Part shown: one piece after another, positions 24,501 to 43,307 of the stretch | How the letters are laid out: every line of letters starts with the position of its first letter | Numbering within the stretch: the stretch's first letter is position 1 | IMG/VR virus record: IMGVR_UViG_3300046697_000236 | Coordinates: 1 to 58,275 of that record | Length of the DNA stretch: 58,275 bases | DNA from: a virus | Reading direction: 5' to 3' (one strand) | Notes under the pieces: model-generated | Told to the model about the DNA's origin: nothing | Databases searched by the model: none | The model's input: the letters and a program-made list of their open reading frames with translations, nothing else | Program-made: the position numbers and the translations under genes

Positions 24501-27500
24501 CTAAGGTCTTCGTCTCCATTTAATATACTATTGGCTGATTTCAGCTCTCCTTTTCTTGTCTTACTATTTTTGGCATATTCATTCGCAGACTGAATCCTAT
24601 CCATAACCCTGTTTTTTGTAGTCACAGGCACCGTGGCAGACTCCTTGCCCATTATCATTGATGGTTTTACATAGGTCAACGGCTTCTTGGTCAGTCTTGG
24701 ATGTTGAACAAACTCAGCAAATTCCTCATTGGTCATTGTGGTTGTTGCTCCATGTCCAACCCAGTCAATAGAATAATTCTCACGGTAGGCATGTTCAGCT
24801 GCAGCCTGATATTTAAATCCGATCATGGCTTTGTACTCGTCAAATTCTCCGGAAGGGTCAACCTGATCAATAATATAGGTGTTCTTTGAAGCTAAATCGG
24901 GACCAAGGAAAACATCAATATGTTCGCCGGTACGATCTTTCGTTCCAAGAATATACCCATAAGGATTCTTCATTTCGGTTTTCCATTCCCTGCCTTGGGG
25001 GTCGGTTCCGGTTCTGACTGATCCGCGCGGGTTCTCAATAGAAATAGTCAACCCATTAATGTTCATCTTGCCTTTCGGGTAGTTGCCTGCTTCGATCTGT
25101 GCCTTGGAAGGATTCATCTCTGTTTCCTTTTCGGCTTGATCTAATTTCTTTTGAAGTTTTACTTCTTCAGGTGTTTGAAATATTCGACCTGTTCTAGTCT
25201 CTTCTTCGCCTGTCCCTTTGATAGGTTCGGTGCTGATAGGTTCTTGCCCTTTTCCGATACTACCTTGTATCCCTGACTTGTTTTTACTAACATTTGATTC
25301 TGGTTTTAATTCATCATGTTTTCTTTCCTCTTGCCTTCTGCTATATTCTTCCGGATTTTCTTTTTTAAGTTTCTCCATTTCGGCATCCGCTTCCGCCCAA
25401 TCATTTTTTCGGGGAGTATTTCGAAACTCTTCAGCATCTTTGGCAATCTTCTCTCGCGGTTCAATATCAGCGGGAGAGCCAGCACCTTGTTCAACCGGGT
25501 GCTGTACTCCAGATACATTTTCCTGAACAGGAGTAGTAATCTGTCCGCCTTCGGGAGGTGAACCCTGGTTCCCCTGAGTTCCAACCTCTTTTTCTTTTGA
25601 TAATATTTGCCAACCTGGAGTCATTTTGTTTCCAGTATTAACTTTCTTTAGTTCTAATACGAAATCGTCACCAATTTGCTCATTTAACTTATCAATTGCA
25701 ACTTTAGCCTCCGAGAACGTCATCATTTGTGAAAGCGATTCCCCCTTATTTTGTGTAGGAGTGAAAGTTGCTGCATTCTTATCTTCATATTGCACAACTA
25801 CTGGTTGCGGTTGTGCCTGTACTTGTTGTTGCGCTTGCTGTTCGACTTGGTTCTGTGTGGCTTCATCAATGTTCGGAGGGATGATTTGATCGTAATCCTT
25901 AGGATCAATATCAATTGAATTCTGACCTTCTACTGCAATTTTAATCCTTCCGTTCTGAATCTTCCGTATTCTTCCTTCCCTGCCACCAGAGAGCTGTATC
26001 ATGTCGCCCGCCTGTAGTTTGTTTACATAAAATTCGGTTAATTGATCTTTGATTTTATCAACAGGATATGCTTGTTGCATGTTGGCAACTTCTTTTTGAA
26101 TATATTCATCTTTGGTGAACTCACTAACAGGTGTTAGTTTATCATTCAGAATCATTTTTTTCTTTCCCTCGATAGGGTCATATACTATAGATGTCTCGTC
26201 ATTTAATGCACTAATCACATGAACGGGATTGCCTTCTATGTCTGTAGCTGTCTTAACTGTACCGGTGGCCTTGTCAGCATTTTGATTATAATTATCATTG
26301 GCTTTTTGATTATATCTGTTATTCCATGCTGTTTTTTCCGCATCTTCGAGTCTTAGTTGTCCGTTCGCCAATGTTTCTTTTATCCGTGCAGCGTCTTCTT
26401 TGGTTATCCTAACCGTGTTATTTAACTGATCCATAGAAACTGACCCAATAGATCCATCACTATTCACTATCTGAACTGGGACGTTTCTTTTAACATTGGC
26501 TTGTTCGTCACCTTCAAGCGATTCCCATGTTTTCCCATATAGTTTTTGAGAAATATTATCAACAATTTTATTCATGTTGGGATTACCCAACACAGCAACA
26601 ACACTTCCATCATCGGTCCTTGTGCCAAGATTATACCCGAATTTGTCAAAGTTTTCCTGTATGTTTTTAGGGAAACCTTTCATTGCGCCAACACCACCCA
26701 TAAATCCACCCATCAGCATCATGGGAAGTGCACTCGTGGCGAATATTTTCCCATAGTTTTTCCAATCATCAATCTTACCTGTGGGTAGCTCGTTAATAAA
26801 TTTAGTCGATGCTGCTAGCCCCCCCATGGTCAGACCGGCATTAATGCCATTTTTCAGTGCGGCGTCAGCAATATTCTTAAGCATATTTGGTGCTTCGGGA
26901 GCTGATGTAAGAAATTTAGATATGGCATAATCTGCAATTTCGGGATCAAGCTTCATTAATTGTGTTGCCGCAAAATCAGAAAGATATTTTCCCTGCATGG
27001 ACTGGGCAAGCTTCCCTCCCCATTGGCTCATAAATATTTGATTTAGTGCCCCTGACATTAATACCGCCCCTCCTTTTAGATATGGATTAATGTCCTCCCC
27101 TGTTTGTTTCTGATAATCATCAAGATTCTTAAGCGTTCCGCCCATTTGGTCCGCGGTCATTGTTCCAATCATACCTTGAGTCAATGCCCGACCTACAGTT
27201 CCAGATATTCCACCTATACCTTCACCTACCCCACCAACCGCAAATAAAGCTATAGGAAGTATCTGTTTTACAGCCTCCGCCCATCCCGTTGTGTTTTCCC
27301 CCTGCTGCATCCACCGTGCTCCCGTTGTTTGCATTTTGTTGCCAAGGTCGTCTTGGTTTAACGTGGAAATTTGTCCAAGAACTTCGGGTGTTGTCTTATT
27401 AGTACTTGGCGTTTCTGCTGGCAGGAATAATCCTCCGCTCATTCCTCCAAGACTGCCGATATTTTCAGCTCCTGTCTTGTAATCAGGAGAAATCAGCTCA

Positions 27501-28369
27501 CCAATACCTTTATACAACTCCTTTTCGGACCGTAAGCGATTGTCTTCGGTCTTTAAATCCATGTAGGTTCTTTTGTTCCATGGATGATCAATATACTTTT
27601 GATCCTCATCAATCCCCTTCATTAATGCAGCTTCTTGTGGAGTACCTTTTAAAATAGACGATAAATTATTCAGCTCTTCTTTGGCTGATTCAAGATAATT
27701 TATCTTCTTATCCATGTCGTTAATAAACGAGCCATTAGTAATTGTCTGATTCTTATCTAACCAATTATTTGAAAATGCATTATGTTGATTTTCAACATCT
27801 TTCGATTTGTTAAAATAGTCCTCCGGATTGTCTCCCAAATCCTCAAATTTAACTCCTTGGGTTTCTAGTGTTTTTTTAAGACACTCAAGCTTAGCTTGAC
27901 CTGAAAGATTTTTTACTGCTTCACCTGCTCCATAAAGTATTGGTCCTACAGTACTTTTTCCAAAAGCTTCTACTCCCTGCAGGGGGGTTGTTAATGACTT
28001 GATTTCTTTGGGTTGTTTATACGAGGGATCCATCCATTCCGCTGCTTGCTCTGAGGCAATATTCGGGAGATTTGCGGCTTGATTAAATTCATTACCAACA
28101 ACATCTGATCTGTCTTTATTTGTTATTGCCCAAGAAGGAAGCTTATTCTCTATTTCAGGACCTGATGCACCTTGGTCTATTTGGCTATTTTGTTTATTTT
28201 CCCCAATGCTTGCCGAACCGCCAACTTCTTTTCCTTTGGGAGAATAACCGTATTCTTCATCAATAAGCTGGTCGTCTGTTTTTGGAACAGAAGTATCAGC
28301 CTCTGGGTCTTTAACCTGAGAATTGTATAAAGAATCAAACTGCGCGAGTTCTTCCGGAGTAAAAGGCAT
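15545..28369 (-). CDS. Giant polyvalent protein (4,274 residues)
   Basis: This one gene takes up about 22% of the genome. Visible parts, N to C: an unstructured start; Gly/Ala-rich membrane-like segments near residues 370-420 and 540-565; a phage pyrophosphatase-like domain (IENPRG, PYGYILGTKDRTGEHIDVFLGPD, about 1090-1200); a zincin metallopeptidase site (HEVGMH at 1532-1537 with a downstream Glu near 1586); a polyvalent repeat-type domain (SEQWMAMLLKNGAKQSEMDWMG, about 1955); a RadC/JAB-like deubiquitinase-fold domain (HNHPSG at 2893); and a C-terminal large-polyvalent-associated region (about 3300-4200). Such proteins are packaged and injected to disarm or reprogramme the host. It follows the internal-protein genes and precedes the portal. 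Confidence 0.85.
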   Translation of the reverse strand: MPFTPEELAQFDSLYNSQVKDPEADTSVPKTDDQLIDEEYGYSPKGKEVGGSASIGENKQNSQIDQGASGPEIENKLPSWAITNKDRSDVVGNEFNQAANLPNIASEQAAEWMDPSYKQPKEIKSLTTPLQGVEAFGKSTVGPILYGAGEAVKNLSGQAKLECLKKTLETQGVKFEDLGDNPEDYFNKSKDVENQHNAFSNNWLDKNQTITNGSFINDMDKKINYLESAKEELNNLSSILKGTPQEAALMKGIDEDQKYIDHPWNKRTYMDLKTEDNRLRSEKELYKGIGELISPDYKTGAENIGSLGGMSGGLFLPAETPSTNKTTPEVLGQISTLNQDDLGNKMQTTGARWMQQGENTTGWAEAVKQILPIALFAVGGVGEGIGGISGTVGRALTQGMIGTMTADQMGGTLKNLDDYQKQTGEDINPYLKGGAVLMSGALNQIFMSQWGGKLAQSMQGKYLSDFAATQLMKLDPEIADYAISKFLTSAPEAPNMLKNIADAALKNGINAGLTMGGLAASTKFINELPTGKIDDWKNYGKIFATSALPMMLMGGFMGGVGAMKGFPKNIQENFDKFGYNLGTRTDDGSVVAVLGNPNMNKIVDNISQKLYGKTWESLEGDEQANVKRNVPVQIVNSDGSIGSVSMDQLNNTVRITKEDAARIKETLANGQLRLEDAEKTAWNNRYNQKANDNYNQNADKATGTVKTATDIEGNPVHVISALNDETSIVYDPIEGKKKMILNDKLTPVSEFTKDEYIQKEVANMQQAYPVDKIKDQLTEFYVNKLQAGDMIQLSGGREGRIRKIQNGRIKIAVEGQNSIDIDPKDYDQIIPPNIDEATQNQVEQQAQQQVQAQPQPVVVQYEDKNAATFTPTQNKGESLSQMMTFSEAKVAIDKLNEQIGDDFVLELKKVNTGNKMTPGWQILSKEKEVGTQGNQGSPPEGGQITTPVQENVSGVQHPVEQGAGSPADIEPREKIAKDAEEFRNTPRKNDWAEADAEMEKLKKENPEEYSRRQEERKHDELKPESNVSKNKSGIQGSIGKGQEPISTEPIKGTGEEETRTGRIFQTPEEVKLQKKLDQAEKETEMNPSKAQIEAGNYPKGKMNINGLTISIENPRGSVRTGTDPQGREWKTEMKNPYGYILGTKDRTGEHIDVFLGPDLASKNTYIIDQVDPSGEFDEYKAMIGFKYQAAAEHAYRENYSIDWVGHGATTTMTNEEFAEFVQHPRLTKKPLTYVKPSMIMGKESATVPVTTKNRVMDRIQSANEYAKNSKTRKGELKSANSILNGDEDLRNKYEITTDTDGDSFLIDKYSRKPVRRDVVKTARTEIESHPSLKEYDDPKFVEFVNTLLTDPRGKFWGVSNVGGEQATRDITKGKKSVASNKALDELKRQFDGNTIRAEKRNIPVDEWMDSMGDLNALSDISPNLIEDIEVPFKNEEEEIVPSKTFIDPKPTDNEVENITSMFNALDQFSENRPEILVHSFEDRLFKPNTSYSGGYFHGIRTAEFITDKIINSKERKDLGLSVSEYSKYLYVHEVGMHYGLRGILPEADIKQLCEKVFDYAENNDKAAFDRLKRLYPKAEKWQLGEEYLTHIAEKMHMEGELNFTKPEAKAWIQFLRNLRETIRKIFGKDIPLAYEDLKKIVHAAFNYHLTNSETTFKNEDINKTTEEDQPDLFSSVPGRDDNGLEAMGNGMAESGRSTIQNGNRLSEGGRPGIQESENTNVSPMVDNNKIEKKGILVSDQRRIKEAEANIQNLKDKIKQIARDKQAKINEIANRTQTQQSLAGFEGKKAVQQSMFDVNPDIDIENIKRILDPFEADKARVEAEIIRNHKLIEGIKRTAGDQWVLFKVEEIGTPIFHRGTEIHKIENQFSLKNEDFQDDNIYVSRGFISALKRGSIPTDDTTSEFHHYFVKDAERGFKAKKIYFKDQSLFKNESTEVFYSNTLRAIDKIQQEKATSEQWMAMLLKNGAKQSEMDWMGLPEFLKENPKLTKSDLTKFVNENKVELKEVVKEQAKVSQNDLDRINELTELRQKRRFTPEESKEFNTINDRLQIGSTDNTKFKGYVLPGGKNYKEWLLTMPSKPMTFEEYKNDSARNGVVFGSEERAKESYSEYLKEPGTDISKKENFKSSHWDEPNVVAHIRSQEFDEPDGTKSLVKEETQSDWQQKGRKEGFNSDESKAIRKKLHDEWTTVENEMIPLQKKSREGTELTQKETARLFELEKRDKELAEENKKLGLNPAPDMPFKNTEQITGLAFKRMLRYAAENGFDRICWPTGEQQAERYDLSKQVDSIHYDPLIKQLSARKGTQQVLKEQGVVPEKIADYIGKDAANKLLSSEINGAGNYELVGDDIKTQAPGMVGYYDKIEPSWIVKYIKPMGGVVGKHTLPNGVTLHSVEMTPAMLETGLGEQSMFKNEEESTLPEEKEQEVKPLPTFMQPVGRWEHPLDKVTNPMGGIQYLHPRETILNSIQPYHYKINAGLTGSTFLGNLNQAIEPTTLDKYPTLKGTQVAIYIRADFTQPGGWFDRGIRFGKPQLFIKAKSQEQASLMLSEGIKYLMQEVDNGNMSDPQPTGFEKLGFGGLNQIEKKHAGTGLYFVAHKNAGQLQYRLFKGTDPSKTILPDWDKKLPISIYDNLLKTAQDNPIAHKFLPNIIALKNSNFGQIYNNLSHFSDDSTVNEILREAGIKGWKRTEGDDTEYVVPDNSDLSIDHVQLLEPNVEYSQKDDIFVQVLNDAVNKLQDSDNINKSYGSKSFLQEYFQKAIDEAVMESKPKNTMGAGKQLSFDFVGRYNIPDQSSTEIPENHIIQGFAESLHISFAGQVIKFPRDIAQLFSLQRSPYIEKGHVVFVDKSGKIIANHSETLGIPSATSLGSKIDDTHDDNFIQIARMAKELNADVYLLHNHPSGNHLPSGEDIRATKNIAAQLTSGSEFKGHIIIDHNKFTIIYANGEFEEKEYKEPVDKLILPTPKVNDVILMTQFAKRLLTEKQLPSAIIMLNSQLKVAGYIPLLNSDITLLINEINEHVKNAGLYAAKHYAIVHDGSIKTTSLLKEQRSLSDGLIDIIDTKINQSYNSVIFQSPVQIRPVIKGYRLGEPEQRYLSEGIEKAVSIFGLTKNIRNAGFILPDGRMLNFVKDGRRLEHINIAKAFADFEAKPLEDQSHDKYDEARTYLERFIHDGAIRISAGDGMVEMNQHPTDEQLKLIGEALGDYRSRIFIDVHHDNGQTNSIEIPTAKGAEDIISEIKSKLNEPVEKKNYVSPVNAFFKNEEDPDQLMNEYLKDHMGNRRYLSIEEAIREAVQDTMLPVKKFMFDVVRAGGKITDDMDVWAKANSAASIMMSKDKELKTDFIEPFLDIAMKTAHEAGVDEQKLQEYMRAKDAIGRNKFKRIQNKDTEPKVYAGSIGNNPLTDDFAQRIINDLESKVDKKTIEKFWDQWRDLTDKNIDMNVEFGMLSISDGQKIKASWKDYVPQRGWKDDQSELFDYQNTQMGGAFNGLQKAKGRESQSADPIAQMINMAQCTIAYGVKNTYNQSMLHFVEANQLTKEGKPLLKGIVEPREVYYIKTKDEDGNESIEETYEKPKAELLKSGRAALKLFAEHKRLRPAEVAKQHEVPVMINGNKVRLVFGNEKMGSLVEVANALNKNNIQTISLAKLLDAPSKFLGRTTGWLSRSATGWNLAFQIPNLLRDLQYAWQANALFNNQGWAYAKNMGRALATIKDSFGKHFDPSTNPDHALYKLYTDNGGPTGFVNAQKISAIEKDLANVYKRYTGTNGILDKIGQSSALRWSKETFEKLSSFSEQTARFATFVTSIEKGRSVLTAIKDAKDVTSNFDTKGTLGKILGANYMFFNPSIQGADHALRMSGVGHEYDFPYTNEKGEYEEGKSNKQRNQRRKAMGVDALGWMVVGYFTAWVNSTIGNIDPVDGKPYYEKISPYVKHNNMIIPTMNEGHHVSIPIGFYFRNWYGLGAGLYEIVSGQTELGTGIGQALNGFTNAFAPVDVGGFVDRKGDFSCRPLIPGYGMGIHDLWSNEDYAQHTITREPFSQALEKVLPSSSLGKENVNPLIKGMTDFSFYVAGGNPNKHTLVNQRSELRGIQENVWKIADWNPSKVEYFLQYYTGGLGQFFNQLYKTTTHAVAAGTNIVSGKDAPFEKAGFEINDIPIFNRFYRNTYGDADMQEFNKLREENAAAKQNYSISTPAEIANYMSHPETARLYLRYKFMDNIEKHERKVSKLENKVDESNKDLITADETQENKIQLKKERADRIHNYLQMIKEADDAADNELKKHKP

Positions 28370-35284: not shown

Positions 35285-36121
35285 TTACATTGGTGAATAA
35301 ACAGACTGCCGGGATTTATCATCTAGAGGATTATAAACTTGGCTGATGTCCTGGTTGTGGTAATAATGCAAAATACTTTTAATTGATCTGTGTCCGGTCA
35401 TCTGCATTGTCTTTGGCAAACTTGCGTTATCAACCAACTTTGTAATGTATTGATGTCTGAAGCTGTGAGGGGTTATTTTCCTGCCGATCTGCGTTTCGGC
35501 TTCATGGAGTACATTTCTTATGCTTGTCTCAGAATATTGGCCTCCATTTGGATTTTCAAAAAGATACTCTTTTGGATTAAACCTTTTAAGATATGCCAAG
35601 ATATATTTTTTCGCTACCTCATGAATCTGAACATCCCGGTTAATTCCATGCTTTAAGGTGTGAATAAAGATTTTGTCATGGATTAAGTCTACTTGAGATA
35701 ATTTGATATTGAGTAATTCCGATATTCTTATGCCAGTCGAAAATAGAAGTATTGTAAAAGTTTTATGTTTCAGATTACTGATTGATTTCATTACAGATAC
35801 AAATTCCTCATAGGTCATTACTTGGTGAAATTTCTTTTCAGACTTAATTGGAACAAACCAATTCATTTTGTTTGGCTGTTTCAATACTCGTTCATAAAGA
35901 ATTTTGGCTGCACTGCAAATCACATTATAATAGGAATCTGAATACCGTTCCCGGAATCCCGAAAAGTATCGTTTCAAATCAAGTTCAGACATTCTATAAA
36001 CTCGCTCGTTCTCAGAAAGGAATTTATTCTTTACTGATTTGTAGTTTTCTTTTGTTATTTCCGACAGCGGCATGAGTCCTAATTCTATGGCATACCTTTT
36101 ATTTAACTCTGACAATTCCAT
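35285..36121 (-). CDS. Tyrosine recombinase (integrase)
   Basis: This 278-residue recombinase has the catalytic set: Arg132 (TGIRISELL), Lys157 (TLKHG), His219-x-x-Arg222 (PHSFRH), His244 (TGHRS) and Tyr253 or 254 (LHYYH). The core-binding domain (residues 25-90) includes SAAKILYERVLKQPNKMNWF, reminiscent of Xer/IntI N-domains. The extra segment that marks IntI between the Lys and His-Arg motifs is not visible. The gene lies 50 bases from the first core of the cassette array. It could be the phage integrase, the array recombinase, or both. Confidence 0.9.
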   Translation of the reverse strand: MELSELNKRYAIELGLMPLSEITKENYKSVKNKFLSENERVYRMSELDLKRYFSGFRERYSDSYYNVICSAAKILYERVLKQPNKMNWFVPIKSEKKFHQVMTYEEFVSVMKSISNLKHKTFTILLFSTGIRISELLNIKLSQVDLIHDKIFIHTLKHGINRDVQIHEVAKKYILAYLKRFNPKEYLFENPNGGQYSETSIRNVLHEAETQIGRKITPHSFRHQYITKLVDNASLPKTMQMTGHRSIKSILHYYHNQDISQVYNPLDDKSRQSVYSPM

Positions 36122-36172
36122 ATAAAATGATTTTAATTATCAAACACTTACCTTTATTGTAATTAATATATG

Positions 36173-36328
36173 TTATGTGGCATTAGGCTTCGGTGCATTC
36201 ATTTCTCGCACCAATTCCATTATCTTCTCCATAACTTTAACAACATATTTTTCACTACATTCGGTTTCTATTTTTACACCAGCCCGAACCAATGGTGCTT
36301 CAATTGTAATTTTATATTTATTGTTCAT
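36173..36328 (-). CDS. Cassette ORF, hypothetical
   Basis: This 51-residue protein (start MNNKYKITIEAPLVRAG) was not recognised. Its stop codon TAA lies inside the array core (GCCACATAAC read leftward), as is common in integron cassettes. The segment ends GTTATGTGGC/GCCACATAAC are a perfect 10-bp inverted repeat. It is the cassette nearest the recombinase gene. Confidence 0.5.
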   Translation of the reverse strand: MNNKYKITIEAPLVRAGVKIETECSEKYVVKVMEKIMELVREMNAPKPNAT

Positions 36329-36344
36329 AATAATTAACGCCACA

Positions 36345-36460
36345 TAACAACGTGTATAAAACATTGCCCTTCGTGGTCTTTTTTTAGTTTATATTAATTT
36401 TATAATTCTGTTCATTCTATTAAGTTCTGTGTTGGCAACGTTTCATACACGCAGCCGTTA
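36345..36460. repeat. attC-like site 1
   Basis: GTGTATAAAACATTGCC (36352-36368) pairs at 15 of 17 places with GGCAACGTTTCATACAC (36434-36450). The outer cores are ATAAC and GTTAG. The size, about 115 bp, fits long attC sites. Confidence 0.65.
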
Positions 36461-36540
36461 GAGTTCAATCGGATTGCTCGCACTAAGCCCTCCCGCTGCA
36501 ATCCGAACGAGAAAGCAAAATTAAAATAAATGCCACCCCA

Positions 36541-36873
36541 CTAAAAATAATTAACCTCGTAACTTACTTTCATTCCTTCATCAAAAGAATATAGAGGCGA
36601 AGGAAATTCAAACGTAACAATACGTTCTCCTTCAATGGTATCGTTATCTACATACCATATTTCTTTGTCTGGATATTTTTCGCATATAATACGTTTGAAT
36701 CTCCTTTTGCTAAGATCATTTAATAAATATCCATATCCTTTTTTGATAAGTCGATCTTTAATTATTTCTTCTTTTTTCGCCTCTATATCTGAGGCCTGTT
36801 TCATCAATAATTCATTTAATGAGCGTTGTTTATCACCCATCTCCGAAAATAATGATTCTAAATTTTTATCCAT
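36541..36873 (-). CDS. Cassette ORF, hypothetical coiled coil
   Basis: This 110-residue protein has a helical N-terminal half and a mixed C-terminal half (IICEKYPDKEIWYVDNDTIEGE). The ATG at 36873 follows GGGAGGT at a five-base distance, a Shine-Dalgarno site rare in this genome, which hints at an origin outside the phage. The segment is bounded by a perfect 12-bp inverted repeat (36457-36468 and 36914-36925). No family is recognised. Confidence 0.6.
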   Translation of the reverse strand: MDKNLESLFSEMGDKQRSLNELLMKQASDIEAKKEEIIKDRLIKKGYGYLLNDLSKRRFKRIICEKYPDKEIWYVDNDTIEGERIVTFEFPSPLYSFDEGMKVSYEVNYF

Positions 36874-36920
36874 ATTACCTCCCAAATTTATTTTAATTAA
36901 GCATCTTTTCTCTTTGAACT

Positions 36921-37074
36921 CTAACGATCAGTAGCAACAGCCCATCTACATAGTACCCACGCAATCCGACTGACTCTAACAAGACCTATCAGCGATATAT
37001 GCGCTGTACTTCGGGGCTGTTTCAGCTTTACTTTATGCGAAGCGCATAAACCGCTGATAGCTCCTGATCGTTAG
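36921..37074. repeat. attC-like site 2
   Basis: CTAACGATCAG (36921-36931) pairs perfectly with CTGATCGTTAG (37064-37074). Inside, TATCAGCG (36987-36994) pairs with CGCTGATA (37052-37059) and continues to a GCGC/GCGC step. A second CTCTAAC core lies at 36974-36980, which would give a shorter site of about 100 bp. Confidence 0.65.
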
Positions 37075-37203
37075 TCGCAAACCGCTTGCACCCCAATGAT
37101 GCCCGAAGCGGTCATCCCCTTTAACACACACGGGCGAACAAAACAATGAAATAAAATAAAATTAGTTTTACCACCACACATCGGATTGTACCAATCCGTG
37201 AAA

Positions 37204-37227
37204 ATAAGGGCTGCTATCATACAGCCC
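37204..37227 (-). terminator. Rho-independent terminator
   Basis: Read leftward, GGGCTG, eight bases, CAGCCC, then TTATTTT. It lies 19 bases beyond the stop of the coiled-coil cassette gene at 37246. Confidence 0.65.
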
Positions 37228-37245
37228 CTATCAATATTACCTTAA

Positions 37246-37461
37246 TCAATCCTTAAGGTCAACCAATATCCAACTATCAGCCGATACCAGTTCACTCCTG
37301 CCATTATTCATGCAGGTTTTTTTTCCATTTAATTGAGCAACTGAATCTATTAAATCTAATAGATTCCCTGATAATTGATCAAGTTTTTCTGTCTTGTCGA
37401 TAAGGGTTTTTACTCTGTTTTCAAGAAAATACACCCTGTTTTCTAATTTTTCTTTTGTCAT
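37246..37461 (-). CDS. Cassette ORF, small coiled-coil protein
   Basis: The start MTKEKLENRVYFLENRV gives 71 residues with clear heptads (residues 3-50), so a dimer or trimer is likely. A longer in-frame reading to 37521 has a hydrophobic, non-conserved-looking extension and is rejected. It has its own terminator at 37204-37227. The stretch 37462-37908 beyond it holds no convincing gene; it contains an array core at 37559-37569, attC-like site 3 and an 83-bp empty segment. Confidence 0.5.
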   Translation of the reverse strand: MTKEKLENRVYFLENRVKTLIDKTEKLDQLSGNLLDLIDSVAQLNGKKTCMNNGRSELVSADSWILVDLKD

Positions 37462-37565
37462 ACTTTTAATTGTTTTAAATTTATAATAAAGATAATAAAA
37501 AAATAAAAATTTCCTTCCCAAAAAACTAATTTAATTTATTTCAAAGTTTCTTTGTTCTTTTGCGA

Positions 37566-37740
37566 CTAATGGCCGAGGCTGAGAGGCGTAATGTAATACG
37601 GCTTCTTTCTGTATCATATTACCCTTGCAAGTGGTCAGACGACTAACAGGTCTGTAAACGTAATCGAGCGTATTACAAAAGCCTCAAACTCTCGTCGGGC
37701 AAAACAAAACGCCCGACTACGTTTACAGCCTCGGCCATTG
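37566..37740. repeat. attC-like site 3
   Basis: AATGGCCGAGGCTG (37568-37581) pairs perfectly over 14 bases with CAGCCTCGGCCATT (37726-37739). The cores are CTAAT and CATTGG rather than AAC/GTT. It contains the 19-base repeat also found at 43202-43220. Confidence 0.6.
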
Positions 37741-37815
37741 GGAAGAATTATGCTCGCACGGCTATCCGCACAAAGCATCCACCTTCCACCACACTCACCA
37801 AAAGCAAATTCTTCC

Positions 37816-38126
37816 CAATGAGTCGGGCATAAGGCCGTCCGCACATTCCATCTATGACTTGCGCCTCCCCGCAAAACTCTCACCAACAAGTCATAAATGA
37901 AATAAAATCTATGACTTTTTTCGCCACCACTCACATGATCTATATGAACGTAGTACCCTAAATAACCCAGTACTATTATTAATATAATTTAATACGCAAA
38001 CACCCTTCTGATATTTGACAACTCTGTCATAATAATCACAGTTTGTACATTTTTTTTCCATATTTATATAATTTACATTTCGCACAAAAGTCATAAATTT
38101 TACATTCACTTATGCCCGACTCGTTA
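37816..38126. repeat. Long attC-like site 4 holding an ORF
   Basis: GAGTCGGGCATAAG (37820-37833) pairs perfectly over 14 bases with CTTATGCCCGACTC (38109-38122). At about 310 bp it is too long for a usual attC and encloses the Cys-rich ORF at 37909-38061. Confidence 0.5.
37909..38061 (-). CDS. Cys-rich small protein inside an attC-like site
   Basis: The start MEKKCTNCDYYDRVV gives 50 residues with four Cys (CTNC near the start, CVL in the middle, CEWW near the end) and a basic tail, so a zinc-binding fold is possible. It lies in the loop of attC-like site 4 rather than between GTT...AAC ends. A longer reading from 38109 starts inside the repeat and is less likely. Confidence 0.45.
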   Translation of the reverse strand: MEKKCTNCDYYDRVVKYQKGVCVLNYINNSTGLFRVLRSYRSCEWWRKKS

Positions 38127-38666
38127 CCTGCAATGCCTTTCAACACTTGCGATAGTGTCGTGAATAGCCCCGCCATGTGAAAATAATGCAATTCGCTCAA
38201 CATTAAAGCCTCTATTAACTCCCATTGTGTTACTGTGGTAGCCGAAGGTTATTACAAGTCCATTTGGTTTTAGTATTCTCGGTAGTTCATCTTTAAGTTG
38301 GCGAAACGGTGAGGCTTTAATACCTTTGTACATTTCCATACTTTTACGATATGCGTATGGCGGGTCTAACAAAACCGTAGCAAACCTATCTCCATTCCAC
38401 TCTTTTACAAATTGTAGCGCATCTTTGTTATAGTCTGCCAACGCTTCAATATCAAGGTCGTTTCTTATTTCATCTATATTTAGCTTTGTTTTGCCAGCAA
38501 ATAAATTAAGCGTCTTGCCTTCGCACGTTTTTTCAGTCCACTCCCTAATAGGTTTGATACTAAACGTCCATCTACTTAATGGGCATTTTATGTAATCGAA
38601 CAACGGCACAGCAGGTAACACGGTATATAGTGCATTGCTTCCGTTCTCTGTTTTTAGTTTATCCAT
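38124..38666 (-). CDS. Cassette DNA methyltransferase (DPPY type)
   Basis: This 180-residue protein has a SAM-binding motif (LNLFAGKTKLN) and a catalytic DPPY (ATVLLDPPYAYRKS), with a closing PNGLVITFGYH segment, as in N6-adenine or N4-cytosine methyltransferases. A target-recognition domain is not evident, so specificity is unknown. The stop codon lies in the array core (GGTAACG). The first ~20 residues cross an attC-like site (38615-38729), so the true start may lie near residue 20, at a GTG or TTG before YIKCPLSRW. No restriction enzyme is adjacent. Confidence 0.75.
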   Translation of the reverse strand: MDKLKTENGSNALYTVLPAVPLFDYIKCPLSRWTFSIKPIREWTEKTCEGKTLNLFAGKTKLNIDEIRNDLDIEALADYNKDALQFVKEWNGDRFATVLLDPPYAYRKSMEMYKGIKASPFRQLKDELPRILKPNGLVITFGYHSNTMGVNRGFNVERIALFSHGGAIHDTIASVERHCR

Positions 38667-38729
38667 AATTTTAACTTTTGTATTTCAATTTTAGTTTTGT
38701 GATGCAACGCACCATATACCCAATCGTTA
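38615..38729. repeat. attC-like site 5
   Basis: GGTATATAGTGCATTGC (38622-38638) pairs at 15 of 17 places with GCAACGCACCATATACC (38704-38720). The cores are GTAAC and CGTTA. It overlaps the start of the methyltransferase ORF. Confidence 0.6.
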
Positions 38730-38778
38730 TACCGCAATCCTTCCCAGCTCACACAATCCACCCCCAAAGTATTGCGGT

Positions 38779-39069
38779 ATAACGGGCGAGCGCATTCGCA
38801 CACCGCTGTGAAGGACAGCGGATAACACCACATAAAGCAAATTTTATAATCTTAAATTTCACGCACAATCTGTTTTTCATCTATTTCTATCATTGAATCA
38901 TCATCAAAATCATCTCCATCGTAATACCATGAATTAAACATCCAATGCGCAACGTGCCAAAATGGTTTATCTGACCATTTATAACCTAATACCCAATAAT
39001 AACCATCTTCTCTTTTCATATATCCAAAATTTAAAATTATAAAACTTGCCTTATGCGCTCGCCCGTTAT
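38779..39069. repeat. Long attC-like site 6 holding an ORF
   Basis: ATAACGGGCGAGCGCAT (38779-38795) and ATGCGCTCGCCCGTTAT (39053-39069) form a perfect 17-bp inverted repeat. The 60-bp segment to its left (38725-38784) is bounded by a perfect 14-bp repeat and carries no gene. The site encloses the ORF at 38852-39019. Confidence 0.55.
38852..39019 (-). CDS. Small acidic protein inside an attC-like site
   Basis: The start at 39019 (MKREDGYYWVLGYKWSDKPF) gives 55 residues rich in Trp, Tyr and Asp. A longer reading from 39124 runs through the array core at 39053-39069 and is rejected for that reason. No family is recognised; the acidic aromatic composition recalls DNA-mimic or immunity proteins, but this is speculation. 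Confidence 0.45.
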   Translation of the reverse strand: MKREDGYYWVLGYKWSDKPFWHVAHWMFNSWYYDGDDFDDDSMIEIDEKQIVREI

Positions 39070-39137
39070 GTTCAATTAAATATTTTAAAAGTTTTTTGCC
39101 CACGCTCTCTTTCAATTTTTTCAAAATTGTGAAAAGG

Positions 39138-39716
39138 TTAGTTAAACCATCTAATTACTGTTTCGCCTTTAAATCCTTTCTCCCAAACATACCACGCATA
39201 GCAATTAGCAGAAGGTGTATTGTATTTCACAAAGTCTGCATTTTTAGCTAACAGCAATCTACTGCTGCTCACATAAACATATTTCGGAGGGTATGCTTTC
39301 AAAAATGGTTTTCGCCTTTGTCCTTCTAAAAATTGTATTCGCATAAGCATTACTACTTTACTTCCATCATCTACTAATCTCAATGCGTGTTCGCAAAATT
39401 GTTTCGCATCTCCGTATGGTGGGTTGGTAAGTATATCTCCATTCCAAGTTTCTAATTGCTCATACAAGTTTATTCCTGTTTCGCCATATCCTCTATCAAT
39501 CAAATCACTTGCCCTGCCAAGCAATCCTTTTGCTTCTAACACCTTTGCTAAATGCCCTTCACCACAGGCACACTCCCAAACATTTTTCAATTCTATTTCG
39601 GGCAAAAATATTTCTAATGCTTTCGGGTCGGTTGCGTAAAAATCATTTTCTTCTCTTTCTCCGTCAGCGTGAGCAGATGCTCCTAATGTTGTAAAATCTC
39701 CTTTTTTCATAATCAT
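39138..39716 (-). CDS. Cassette DNA adenine methyltransferase (NPPY type)
   Basis: This 192-residue protein has motif I (NVWECACGEGHLAKVL, about residues 45-60), the acidic residue after strand 2 (ASDLIDRG) and catalytic NPPY (GDILTNPPYGDA, about 95-106). A C-terminal part (VMLMRIQFLEGQ) fits the N6-adenine class. It is shorter than most stand-alone enzymes. It lies in the segment 39065-39814, whose ends GTTATGTT/AACATAAC pair; a further inverted pair of about 22 bases lies at 39077-39098 and 39755-39776. Confidence 0.8.
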   Translation of the reverse strand: MIMKKGDFTTLGASAHADGEREENDFYATDPKALEIFLPEIELKNVWECACGEGHLAKVLEAKGLLGRASDLIDRGYGETGINLYEQLETWNGDILTNPPYGDAKQFCEHALRLVDDGSKVVMLMRIQFLEGQRRKPFLKAYPPKYVYVSSSRLLLAKNADFVKYNTPSANCYAWYVWEKGFKGETVIRWFN

Positions 39717-39806
39717 TGTTTTAAGTTGTAAATAAATCCCACCGCACCCCTCTCAAAAAAACTTTTAAAATATTTAACTGCCCTTCGCTCGAAAACCCTA
39801 CGCACC

Positions 39807-39882
39807 AACATAACACCGTATATACGCTATTCTCCCACCCACAAGCAACGCACAACAGCGCATATACTTTTTCGTTAGGTGC
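39807..39882. repeat. attC-like site 7
   Basis: This is a compact site of about 75 bp. GTATATACGC (39818-39827) pairs at 9 of 10 places with GCGCATATAC (39858-39867). Read leftward the outer core is ACCTAAC, which fits RYYYAAC exactly, and the other end is GTTATGT. This is the most classical site of the array. Confidence 0.7.
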
Positions 39883-39886
39883 AATA

Positions 39887-40786
39887 TTAAAAAATAGCCC
39901 CACCGCACATCGGCTTTTTCAAAGCCGTTTGGATAGCTACATCGTAAGTTACACCATTGTTTTTATAATTCATTCCTATTTCAAATGCTTTTGGTTGTGT
40001 TTCTTTTAATCTTATAAATCTATCGTCTTTGTGGCAACCAAATCCACAAATCATACAGCCTGTCTGTGTTTCTCCTTTGTCGTAAATTTCACAATACGGT
40101 ATTTTGTTTTGTTTTATAAAGTTCCATTTATCTTCATCAGTCCAAATACTTATCGGATAACTTGCAGGTCTATTCACTTCAAAAGCATTGCATCCAGTAG
40201 TTAAGTATTTTTGTAGTCTTAATCTGCTTTCATTTACAGAAGTTCCGATAATTGGAAATAGCTTATTTTCTTTTTCATACTTGTATGCAGGTCGCTTCTT
40301 TAAGTGGTAACAGCATTTTTCTGAAATATCAAATGGTGTATTTATTAAGTGTTGCCATTTATTTGATATTTTGCCCTGATTTCCTTTTCTGCCATTCAAT
40401 CTAAGTTCTAAAAGTTTTTCACTTTTTGTTGTTCTTGCTTCCCTTATGTATTGTGCCTGTTCTTTTGATATTAAGGGAAATCCACATTTTTCAATAACTG
40501 ATTTTAAATTCATTTCAGGCTGTATTTTCACACAGTCAATTTCTTTTATGAACTTATAAATCTCTGGAAATTCATTTGTAGTATTGAAAAATACTGCTTT
40601 AATATCAGGTTTAATAATCCTTGCTAAATGCAGTAATATTGTGCTGTCTTTACCTCCACTAAAAGAAACATAAGCATTTCCATTTGAGTAAGTCAAAGCA
40701 TTTTCAATAGTAAAAAGTGAATGGTCAATCTTTTGGTCAAGTGTCCAATTCAATCTTTCGTTTAATATTTCTCTTGTAATTATCAT
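39887..40786 (-). CDS. Cassette PAPS-reductase/DndC-like PP-loop protein
   Basis: This ~299-residue protein has the PP-loop SFSGGKDST (about residues 42-50) and an ATP-pyrophosphatase fold as in phosphoadenosine phosphosulfate reductases, and a Cys pair with TGCMICGFGCHKD near 245, as in DndC-like enzymes that may bind Fe-S. Such proteins activate sulfate or a nucleobase. In phages they have been linked to DNA modification. Its stop is nine bases before ACCTAAC. The IS element split this cassette just upstream of its start. Other Dnd genes are absent. Confidence 0.75.
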   Translation of the reverse strand: MIITREILNERLNWTLDQKIDHSLFTIENALTYSNGNAYVSFSGGKDSTILLHLARIIKPDIKAVFFNTTNEFPEIYKFIKEIDCVKIQPEMNLKSVIEKCGFPLISKEQAQYIREARTTKSEKLLELRLNGRKGNQGKISNKWQHLINTPFDISEKCCYHLKKRPAYKYEKENKLFPIIGTSVNESRLRLQKYLTTGCNAFEVNRPASYPISIWTDEDKWNFIKQNKIPYCEIYDKGETQTGCMICGFGCHKDDRFIRLKETQPKAFEIGMNYKNNGVTYDVAIQTALKKPMCGGAIF

Positions 40787-40838
40787 AATGTGAAAATAAA
40801 AATTTCCCACGCTTCGCTATTTTTTAAGTATTAATGCA

Positions 40839-42103
40839 AAAGAAATCCCCTATCCCTTTAGGGTAGCGGGATGAATTTTGCCTGTTTTTGTTTGTTATTA
40901 TGGTTATTAATCGTATATTTGCATTGTGAGAGCGTATAAATTCAGAATATATACTACAAGAAAACAAGAGGAGTTGCTGCAATTCACTCTTAATCATTGC
41001 CGTTGGCTTTATAACACAGCGCTTCAACAGCGAAGGGATGTTTATAGGAGTACGGGCAAAAGCATTGGTTATTCCATCCAGCAAAACGAAATGCCTCTTT
41101 TGAAAGATCAGTTTCCCGAATACAGACAGATTCATTCTCAGGTCTTGCAGAGCGTTCTTAAACGTGTTGATCTGGCCTACCAAAGTTTCTTTCGCAGGAT
41201 TAAGCAAAAGGGAGAAAAAGCCGGATTTCCTCGCTTTCACGGCAAAGAACATTACGATAGCTTCACCTACCCCCAAAGTGGTTTTTCGTTTACTAAAGGC
41301 AAAAACAGGATTAATCTTTCCAAGATAGGACTGGTAAAAATTAAACTTCATAGACAAATTCCTCTTGGCACTCAAATAAAAACCTGCACAATTAAAAGAG
41401 AGAGCGATAAATGGTATGCCATTTTCTCCTGTATGCTTTCTAATCCAGCCCCAAAAAAGAAAGCCGTTACAAATGTTATCGGTATTGATCTGGGGTTGAC
41501 CGATTTTGCCGTATTGAGTAATGGAGAAGAAATTGCCAATCCCAAATATCTGAAACAGTCTGAGGATAAACTTAAAGAAATTCAAAGCAAGTACTCTAAA
41601 GGTAAAAGCAAGAAGGTTAAACGACAGATTGGTAATCTTTATCATAAAATCACTAATCAGCGCAACGATTTTCAGCACAAACTTTCTTATAAATTGGTAA
41701 ATACTTTTGATCTTATTGCTTATGAAGATTTGAAAATAAAACAAATGATTGAAGATAATAAATTCAATCTTCAAAAACATATTTCCGATGCCGCTTGGGG
41801 TAAATTTATTTTTATGCTTAAATACAAAGCTGAAAACGCTGGTAAGTATTGCATAGCAGTAAATCCAAAAGGCACAACGCAAAGGTGCAGTCATTGTAAC
41901 TCTGTTGTGAAAAAAACGCTCTACGAACGCTCTCACAAGTGTCCTGCTTGCGGTTTTGAAACAACAAGGGACATCAATGCTGCACTGAACATTGAAAAGC
42001 TGGGTATCAGCTTGGTTGATAAATCTGTATGTTCTGATATAGTTCATCCTTTTTTGTTTTCCGAAGCCGCTTCGCCTTTAGGCAAGCGGTAGTTCACTAC
42101 AGA
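40839..42103 (+). mobile_element. IS200/IS605-family element with TnpB only
   Basis: The element carries one gene, tnpB, and lacks the TnpA transposase, so it depends on another copy. Subterminal hairpins fit the family: left at about 40847-40870 (CCC..TACCC-like stem with TTTA loop) and right at 42067-42089 (CCGCTT, bulged C, GCC, TTTA, GGC, AAGCGG). The flanking array repeat, GCTATTTTTTAA... on the left and CACCTAAC on the right, is restored if the element is removed. Ends are uncertain by a few bases. Confidence 0.75.
40926..42092 (+). CDS. tnpB: TnpB RNA-guided nuclease (IS605 OrfB)
   Basis: This full-length protein of 388 residues keeps all hallmarks: N-terminal HTH domain (AYKFRIYTTRKQEELL), RuvC-I Asp (VIGIDLGLTD), RuvC-II Glu (LIAYEDLKIKQM), a zinc ribbon (CSHC...CPAC) and RuvC-III Asp (TTRDINAALNI). 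TnpB cuts DNA using an RNA from the element's right end. The last codons run into the right-end hairpin, so the guide RNA overlaps the gene's 3' end. It is the only plus-strand gene within the array, which marks it as a late arrival. Confidence 0.92.
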   Translation: MRAYKFRIYTTRKQEELLQFTLNHCRWLYNTALQQRRDVYRSTGKSIGYSIQQNEMPLLKDQFPEYRQIHSQVLQSVLKRVDLAYQSFFRRIKQKGEKAGFPRFHGKEHYDSFTYPQSGFSFTKGKNRINLSKIGLVKIKLHRQIPLGTQIKTCTIKRESDKWYAIFSCMLSNPAPKKKAVTNVIGIDLGLTDFAVLSNGEEIANPKYLKQSEDKLKEIQSKYSKGKSKKVKRQIGNLYHKITNQRNDFQHKLSYKLVNTFDLIAYEDLKIKQMIEDNKFNLQKHISDAAWGKFIFMLKYKAENAGKYCIAVNPKGTTQRCSHCNSVVKKTLYERSHKCPACGFETTRDINAALNIEKLGISLVDKSVCSDIVHPFLFSEAASPLGKR

Positions 42104-42236
42104 CACCTAACACGTGCTATAAGCAATAGCGGGTTCGCTGGTTATTTGAAGTTCTGTATCTCGTTCAATCATTTATTGTAATTTGAAAGTTTATCACTCG
42201 TATTCCGCTACTGCTCAGAGCACCACCGTTAGCAGT
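42104..42236. repeat. attC-like site 8
   Basis: GTGCTATAAGCAATAGCGG (42114-42132) pairs at 16 of 19 places with CCGCTACTGCTCAGAGCAC (42205-42223). The cores are CACCTAAC and CGTTAGC. It is about 130 bp long. It directly adjoins the IS right end. Confidence 0.65.
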
Positions 42237-42240
42237 AATA

Positions 42241-43086
42241 CTACATTCCATCTCCGAATAAAGTTTTCTGCGTTAAATCTTTTTCTTTTCTTTTTTCTCC
42301 CGCCCTTTTTAAAATCAAATCAATATTACTTTGTTCTTTATCAATTAGTAGGTAGTTTCTATTTGTATCAATGCAAACAAGTCCAGTAGTTCCACTTCCT
42401 GCAAAGCAATCCACTATCAAATCACCTTCGTTGCTAAAACTTTTTACAAAAAACTCAACCAACTTTTCAGGGAATGTTGCTGAATGGTCGCTCTTTAAAG
42501 TAAATTGGTTGCTTACATTATTTACGTTTACAACATTTGAAGGTCTTGCAAATTCAAGGTTTCTTATATTGGTTGTGTTCATTCCTGTCATACCACTTCC
42601 GTTTTTTGGCGCACCACATTGTTTTCTGTATGTTCTTGCAATACTTTCTTCCTTCATTGGCGTTCCGCAAGCAATCGGGTTAAATGTTATTTGGTTTGGG
42701 TTTCCTTTTGTAAAGTGGTAAACAGGCTCAAAAGCGTTTTTAAACCTACCTTTCAAACTACCTGGAAATGCGTTTTTAGTCCAGCAATATTCTTCTACAA
42801 ATAAAAATCCAAGTTCCTTTTTTAGCATAATAACCAATTCAAAAACGTATAAACTTCTTTCTCCTTTATTGGTATGCGGTTTTATATTCAAAAAGAAACT
42901 ACCAGTTGGCTTTAAAACCCGTTTAACCTCAATCGCAATAGGTTTGAACCACTCTAAATATTTATCTTCTGCAATACCACCATAGGTATTTTTTCTCCTA
43001 TCTGCATAAGGTGGCGAAGTAAATACCATATCCACGCTATTGTCAGCAAGTTTTTTTAGTTCGTTTTCACTATATCCGTGTATTAT
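42241..43086 (-). CDS. Cassette DNA methyltransferase (TSPPY, beta type)
   Basis: This 281-residue protein has the motif order of beta-class enzymes: catalytic TSPPYADRR near the N-terminus (about residue 24) and the SAM site CFAGSGTTGL near the C-terminus (about residue 235). TSPPY is usual for N4-cytosine or N6-adenine methylation. The start MIIHGYSENELKKL is preferred over the ATG at 43167 because the longer reading runs through the array leader. Its TAG stop lies ten bases from the core TGCTAACG. The segment ends (GTTAGCAGTAATAC, GTACTACTGCTAAC) pair at 13 of 14 places. Confidence 0.82.
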   Translation of the reverse strand: MIHGYSENELKKLADNSVDMVFTSPPYADRRKNTYGGIAEDKYLEWFKPIAIEVKRVLKPTGSFFLNIKPHTNKGERSLYVFELVIMLKKELGFLFVEEYCWTKNAFPGSLKGRFKNAFEPVYHFTKGNPNQITFNPIACGTPMKEESIARTYRKQCGAPKNGSGMTGMNTTNIRNLEFARPSNVVNVNNVSNQFTLKSDHSATFPEKLVEFFVKSFSNEGDLIVDCFAGSGTTGLVCIDTNRNYLLIDKEQSNIDLILKRAGEKRKEKDLTQKTLFGDGM

Positions 43087-43124
43087 CATATTTTTAATTT
43101 TTTCAAAATTATTTTTGCCATCGC

Positions 43125-43307
43125 TCAAAAAAAGAAAAGAAAAAGGTTCGGTTCTTCGATTGAGCATTTGTGGTTTAAATCCGTACTACTGCTAACATCG
43201 TGCTGAGAGGCGTAATGTAAAAACCAAGCAATGTTTTTATCTGTTTGCGTTTTAGAATTGTAACCAGTTATTTCTTTTTGTTTTGGTAATTTTTCTGTTG
43301 TTGTCAT
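43125..43307 (-). pseudogene. Small operon gene cut by the array
   Basis: The start (MTTTEKLPKQKEITGYN) is spaced like a true operon member: TAATATG after the previous stop. From about residue 36 the reading enters the array core (GATGTTAGCAG) and ends in low-complexity FLFFF inside the neighbouring cassette. It is best read as a gene whose 3' end was replaced by the array. The 19-base repeat at 43202-43220 codes for part of its LHYASQ segment. Confidence 0.5.

Follow-up and report, generated by a model that had tools for sequence, protein, structure and literature searches.

The 58,275-nt IMG/VR virus record IMGVR_UViG_3300046697_000236 (the window, i.e., the whole stretch of DNA analyzed here) carries, at positions 36172–43196, nine segments with complementary ends that alternate with eight hairpin sites, next to a gene for a tyrosine recombinase, P0001. 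As a whole, including a Xer-like enzyme and the unit model described below, the region is with high probability a phage-borne integron-like system, and its array is probably run by a non-IntI, Xer-like recombinase, as judged from sequence. Terminase, portal, and RecT-like genes are present, so the window was taken as a tailed phage, the host of which, by its relatives, is likely a member of Bacteroidota. Among devices that collect and shuffle genes, integrons are the best known; they are regarded as bacterial and as relying on a single integrase family. In phages, the same kind of cassette capture appears to be run by a second group of recombinases, which are not IntI, and the unit is altered: its start codon often lies within the recombination site. 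The open-access literature searched, from which subscription papers and preprints are mostly absent, yielded no description of this recombinase group or of the arrays that go with it.

Anatomy of the cassette array

The array was read base by base and then checked by script. Its genes lie on the − strand and head toward the P0001 gene in the same orientation as it; accordingly, "coding strand" denotes the − strand, and segment coordinates are given on the + strand. The repeat-chain scan required GTTA/TAAC cores together with a shuffle control, plain 8-bp repeats being swamped by AT-rich chance matches. The best − strand chain of GTTA..TAAC repeats scored 20, compared with a mean of 5.8 and a maximum of 11 in 200 dinucleotide shuffles. 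The features, in order from the recombinase gene, are as follows (ORF, open reading frame).

35285–36121 (−): tyrosine recombinase P0001, presumed cassette recombinase; 278 aa, PF00589
36122–36175 (−): attI-like site, TAAC followed by ATATATTAATTAC..; core 50 nt before the P0001 start codon
36172–36348 (−): cassette body 1, ends GTTATGTGGC; ORF 36173–36364, TAA stop within the core
36346–36459 (−): attC-like hairpin 1, stem CGTGTATGAAACGTTGCC/CGTGTATAAAACATTGCC
36457–36925 (−): cassette body 2, ends GTTAGAGTTCAA, 12-bp complementary; ORF 36541–36885
36923–37072 (−): attC-like hairpin 2, best stem 36978–37072; second CTCTAAC core-like copy at about 36974
37070–37570 (−): cassette body 3, ends GTTAGTCGCAAA; ORF 37246–37521; distal core AAT, not AAC
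37568–37739 (−): attC-like hairpin 3, cores AAT/ATT; inner inverted repeat 37652–37728
37737–37819 (no strand): segment 4, ends ATTGGGAAGAATT; no gene; cores ATT/AAT
37817–38125 (−): hairpin 4, 17-nt arms, 94% complementary; loop of about 275 nt with weak ORF 37909–38109
38123–38619 (−): cassette body 5, ends GTTACCTGC; DNA methyltransferase ORF 38124–38666, stop in the core
38617–38728 (−): attC-like hairpin 5, stem and fold; possible start codon of ORF 38124–38666 inside
38726–38783 (no strand): segment 6, ends GTTATACCGCAAT, 13-bp complementary; no gene
38781–39067 (−): hairpin 6, 17-bp perfect arms, inner 29-bp inverted repeat, loop of about 257 nt
39065–39814 (−): cassette body 7, ends GTTATGTT; DNA methyltransferase ORF 39138–39716
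39812–39876 (−): attC-like hairpin 7, stem and fold
39874–42111 (−): cassette body 8, ends GTTAGGTG; PAPS-reductase-fold (3′-phosphoadenosine-5′-phosphosulfate) ORF 39887–40810
42109–42230 (−): attC-like hairpin 8, stem and fold
42228–43196 (−): cassette body 9, ends GTTAGCAGTA; DNA methyltransferase ORF 42241–43167
43194–43307 (−): distal end, remnant half attC; leader ORF from 43307 reads through the core

An earlier note on this DNA, made from the letters alone, had described nine segments and eight hairpins alternating without exception. The alternation was borne out, as were the repeats quoted as examples (36457/36914, 37737/37807, and 38725/38771, by script check) and the location of two stop codons in the core, those of the ORFs that end at 36173 and 38124. 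However, three of the 18 cores read AAT/ATT instead of GTT/AAC (37570, 37737, and 37819), so that "without exception" does not hold. The two gene-free segments, 37737–37819 and 38726–38783, adjoin hairpins with loops of about 257–275 nt, one of which holds a credible small ORF (55 aa, about 38852–39020, in hairpin 6).

The ends of cassette body 1, GTTATGTGGCGTTA/TAATGCCACATAAC, are complementary with G/A at position 11, and its core sequence was found again in locus L011. Hairpin 1 is predicted to fold at −12.9 kcal/mol on the − strand vs. −8.5 kcal/mol on the + strand. The arms of five hairpins carry two G (5′ arm, − strand)/A (complement of the 3′ arm) differences about 5 nt apart, and no difference of the reverse kind (A/G) was found in the ungapped stems of these five; the stem of each begins close to the core, at a distance of a few nt, and at the two positions G in the 5′ arm of the coding strand faces T in the 3′ arm. 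A 19-nt stretch, GCTGAGAGGCGTAATGTAA, is identical at 37578–37596 (hairpin 3) and 43202–43220 (the distal attC remnant), and both copies encode LHYASQ in a − strand leader ORF.

The recombinase is not of the IntI type

P0001 matches PF00589 at 83.5 bits (cut-off 27.1), and its catalytic residues R132, K157, H219, R222, H244, and Y253 are intact and occupy invariant alignment columns; it looks like a complete tyrosine recombinase. An additional domain around patch III is the criterion used to define IntI (PMC9668308). P0001 scored far under the IntI model (TIGR02249, 66.8 bits vs. a cut-off of 265), its match to IntI4 is interrupted at the extra sequence of IntI, and in an alignment of P0001, the array-associated family, two phage-borne IntI, and E. 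coli XerC/XerD, the IntI-specific segment was present only in IntI. By these sequence measures P0001 is not an IntI. Against the XerA-like model NF040815, P0001 reached 112.2 bits, below the curated cut-off of 220, and six other family and L006 recombinases tested scored 168–195 bits against the same cut-off. The earlier note had left out the gene at 35285–36121, the product of which is this non-IntI enzyme.

These results bear on the possibility that the region is an ordinary bacterial integron or attC cluster of the IntI type captured by the phage. IntI integrons and attC clusters have been reported in phages, the complete ones carrying IntI captured from hosts (Qi et al., 2023; PMC9892861), and the logic of attI, attC, and cassettes is alike. 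Such a capture is nevertheless very unlikely, given that P0001 and the array-associated family have no IntI-specific segment and lie far under the IntI cut-off, that the cores are not GTTRRRY, and that attC is located 5′ of the gene; it is contradicted by the recombinase and was rejected.

A single-protein search with P0001 in IMG/VR found nothing, and P0001 searches of phages, plasmids, and genomes (for bacterial chromosomes, one single-protein scan) returned distant matches only. A relative in Fusibacter (30%) had no array upstream.

Arrays and attI-like sites at related recombinases

The recombinase of L042, which itself stands at an array end, was used as the query and gave 182 relatives in IMG/VR, 80 of which were kept. 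With a unit defined by a GTTA..TAAC repeat score of at least 8 and an end no more than 230 nt upstream of the recombinase, 50 of the 58 relatives having enough upstream sequence passed, vs. 45 of 402 control windows. Most units were then followed by TAAC and a TATTATATATA-like sequence about 50–75 nt before the recombinase start, which was taken as attI. Most contigs found in a search with a P0001-led alignment were already in this set; of the 20 new ones, 13 had a unit at that place. The window fits this recombinase-adjacent pattern, with GTTATGTGGCGTTA/TAATGCCACATAAC 50 nt upstream of P0001, and the position of its attI-like site and a similar AT-rich sequence recur at most related recombinases. 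By chain score alone, L010 and L023 were indistinguishable from shuffles and L011 weakly distinguishable.

Two pairs of loci differ exactly at this site. Identity between L086 and L088 is 99.97% over 6.85 kb, recombinase and attI included, and L111 and L112 match at 100% over 2.65 kb; in both pairs the last cassettes differ and the break falls at TAAC. L149 and L150, P0001 relatives with array-like units upstream, are perhaps prophages of cultured bacteria, as their IMG record numbers resemble those of isolate genomes, and could serve as laboratory models.

Predicted folding of the attC-like sites favors the coding strand

Across 45 loci, unit ends pair from the core outward with a mismatch at position 11 in 155 of 166 cassettes (G against A in 122); since the 166 units were chosen by repeat score, pairing at positions 5–10 is partly selected, the mismatch at position 11 not. 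The coding strand folded better in 98 of 107 attC sites; the attC-type folding that the earlier note had proposed as a check was thus found, and it is strand-biased. The bias stems from the arm differences (161 G/A vs. 23 A/G), because G/A differences give G·T pairs on the coding strand and A·C clashes on the other. In canonical integrons, only one attC strand, the bottom one, recombines (PMC2727003).

At 60 of 122 sites, an ORF begins within attC and continues across the core into the cassette, compared with 10 of 122 in the opposite-strand control. Core R′ is GTTA plus variable bases (GTTAGCA, GTTATGT, and GTTACCT), not GTTRRRY, and an Rfam search gave no match. L064, L065, and L067 have a short type of attC, about 45 nt in length and with TCGTTTTAATG as its loop, which occurs several times within one array, e.g., in L065; a similar attC is present in the cultured Polaribacter phage P12002L (L018, before 30011).

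Cassettes move as whole units in relatives

A search with the cassette-9 methyltransferase led to L007, where a homologous cassette has different neighbors and the similarity ends at both cores. The attC sequence common to L007 and L011 was present in 28 contig stretches, about 17 of which have an almost identical hairpin between different genes; a cassette order that is always the same, which the earlier note had named as evidence against an array, was not seen. Among the cultured phages searched, the L007/L011 attC has a perfect match in Flavobacterium phage mymlan6-1, the sister isolates of which are virulent phages isolated in one study (PMC7077304).

Two virulent Flavobacterium phages, mumin6-1 and mumin6-3, with 99.9% identity in the region, are set apart by one 506-bp cassette bounded by TAAC, which reads as follows (outer brackets mark the unit).

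TTAAC[ GTTTGGTGG..ATG..GATGCT GTTATGCAATC..ORF..GTTGCATAAC ]GTTATCAGG

This difference indicates that a unit consists of the hairpin first and then the downstream gene, ending at TAAC, and the unit boundaries rule out that the hairpin belongs to the upstream gene. The polarity thus departs from that of a canonical cassette: the hairpin belongs to the downstream gene, at the 5′ side of that gene. The broader idea of an integron-like cassette array in a phage was supported, as units move at cores in relatives and a recombinase with a conserved site stands at the array end, with amendments to the polarity and to the cores, some of which are decayed.

Among 13 Flavobacterium phages, TAAC was found within 24 nt of 38 of the 48 distinct insertion or replacement edges (chance, 12.9%), several insertions share one terminal site, TAAC followed by TACAATATTACATG, and some replacement edges reach into similar attC halves. 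Cassettes are thus gained, lost, and replaced as whole units at cores, as seen in relatives rather than in the window itself. Methyltransferase genes are among the cassettes of the Baltic Flavobacterium phages, and the lower plating of these phages on strain LMO6 was linked by the authors to the lack of one methyltransferase (PMC7077304).

Edges extending into similar attC halves could also be produced by ordinary phage mosaicism, that is, by homologous recombination that joins different genes at short conserved linkers or hairpins and needs no dedicated site-specific system; phages recombine freely, and the window phage has a RecT-like annealing protein. We hold this to be improbable to a high degree, as edges fall at the 4-nt core even where longer similarity is lacking and the two ends of a unit complement each other, position 11 being a constant mismatch, and mosaicism would not predict strand-biased hairpins or a recombinase at a constant distance from the array end. 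The suggestion that the hairpins are transcription terminators or elements like miniature inverted-repeat transposable elements (MITEs), which the earlier note had likewise listed as evidence to the contrary, draws on inverted repeats located between genes, some with AT-rich inner repeats. It was rejected and is scarcely credible: complementary ends flank whole genes, the repeats travel together with whole genes, the unit boundaries seen between mumin6-1 and mumin6-3 contradict it, no target duplications were seen, and the stem plan is asymmetric, with no Rfam match.

Proposed mechanism and its weighing

In the proposed system, the mobile unit (coding strand) would consist of an attC-like hairpin, often with a start codon, then GTTA, an ORF, and TAA, extending to the next TAAC. 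Excision at two TAAC cores, with a predicted cleavage point between TAA and C, would yield a circle in which the unit's own ends face each other and a long stem forms. Only the free circular unit would form the full stem, because the stretch following GTTA is complementary to the one preceding its own TAAC; within an array the outer stem would lie between different cassettes and pair over GTTA/TAAC only. The Xer-like recombinase at the array end, here presumably P0001, would recognize the folded coding strand as a single-stranded hairpin substrate, and insert the unit at the attI-like TAAC, which precedes the start codon of the recombinase by 50 nt; the array would be reshuffled when units are deleted or exchanged at other TAAC cores. 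The gene would come with its own start codon and be read by the phage operon running into the recombinase gene, a more likely route of expression than a cassette promoter Pc beside attI, because cassette genes run toward the recombinase. The likely use is to swap DNA methyltransferases and small genes as a counter to host restriction.

Several points weigh against the integron-like system as proposed. Recombination itself is deduced from natural rearrangements in relatives, and the pairing statistics carry the selection by repeat score mentioned above. P0001 is 28–32% identical to the array-associated family, and in the tree the array-associated (L063-family) clade is supported at 99/99, with P0001 as a long unplaced branch. 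No PF00589 gene was found in the Flavobacterium phages mymlan, filifjonk, mumin, and snork, though arrays are present there; a nearby recombinase in cis is therefore not always needed, and the enzyme acting on these phages would come from the host, a co-infecting element, or another family. Finally, the window array may be only partly active, since some of its cores are decayed, its distal site is truncated, and a TnpB gene has inserted in it.

The decay (AAT/ATT cores), the truncation, and the TnpB insertion, together with the divergent recombinase, would equally suit a fossil array, immobile in the window though the system is real in relatives, with P0001 otherwise employed, e.g., in prophage integration. 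This is unlikely in our assessment, since the catalytic residues of P0001 are intact, and the unit at attI is intact as well, with the position-11 mismatch of the family and the 50-nt spacing. The integron-like reading is thus preferred. A wider proposal, toward which we lean somewhat, is that a phage-specific class with Xer-like non-IntI recombinases is widespread, at least partly in Bacteroidota phages, with the start codon in the hairpin and expression from the phage operon, and that virulent phages devoid of the enzyme rely on help in trans when exchanging methyltransferase cassettes.

Cassette gene content

The cassette genes with recognizable functions encode three DNA methyltransferases and one PAPS-reductase-fold protein. 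The methyltransferases matched phrog_11619 (cassette 5, 142.7 bits; homologues align only from about residue 30), phrog_799 (cassette 7, 190.9 bits), and PF01555 (cassette 9, 154.9 bits). The cassette 8 protein matched PF01507 at 84.7 bits and could, from its sequence, be a DNA modification gene product; the same ORF, 39887–40810 (−), also matches the PADLOC models BrxP and SspD (DNA phosphorothioation, BREX). For ORF 36541–36885 of cassette body 2, profile searches gave no family match. A TnpB gene at 40926–42092 (+) is inserted within cassette 8 (guided_TnpB, 314 bits); it is RNA-guided and of the IS200/IS605 type, and no other large gene of the array lies on the + strand.

Three phages share a leader about 38 nt long (GTTATGTTGGTGCGTAGGGTTTTCGAGCGA..GGGCAGTT), at 39776–39814 (cassette 7), L006 9605–9645, and L014 5609–5650, with different genes after it; it is perhaps a promoter or 5′ untranslated region of one cassette class. 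Elsewhere in the window, 15545–28369 (−) is a single ORF of 4274 aa, 22% of its length.

Because the layout recurs in dozens of other phage contigs, and whole cassettes distinguish close relatives at the predicted joints, these phages probably exchange genes, DNA-modification enzymes among them, much as bacteria trade resistance genes in integrons. The system offers a mechanism for rapid turnover of phage methyltransferases and small accessory genes. It also makes a question on how integron recombination arose testable: can folded single strands be recombined by a Xer-like enzyme that has no IntI domain?

Comparison with known systems

Reversed-integrase integrons of Spirochaetota (PMC9668308), likened here by description only, resemble the present system in that the orientation of the recombinase relative to the cassettes departs from the classical layout, but they use IntI. 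The XerA-like, XerC, and XerD recombinases (NF040815, TIGR02224, and TIGR02225) are the closest by sequence, with the same catalytic residues and no IntI segment; in contrast, the recombinases described here score under the curated cut-offs and stand at array ends with a conserved TAAC followed by TATTATATATA. The phage integrons of PMC9892861 likewise include methyltransferase cassettes in phages, and Polaribacter phage P12002L from that study holds a unit of the kind found in the window; one P12002L attC recombined with IntI1 and attI1 in an assay (PMC9892861), which may or may not be the same site. Neither a resident non-IntI recombinase with a conserved attI nor a reversed unit is described there.

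The likeness to IntI integrons comprises tandem cassettes each with a hairpin site, complementary unit ends, single-strand folding with a predicted strand preference, an attI-type insertion site beside a tyrosine recombinase with different last cassettes at identical attI, and a stop codon often in the core. Unlike them, the recombinase here is without the IntI-specific domain, the core is GTTA/TAAC without GTTRRRY, the hairpin stands 5′ of its gene and often holds the start codon (attC then gene, vs. the canonical gene then 3′ attC), and the array genes point to the recombinase gene and share its orientation. As the IntI domain and the GTTRRRY core are both missing and attC lies on the other side of the gene, the system is not placed in the IntI integron family; it works like an integron.

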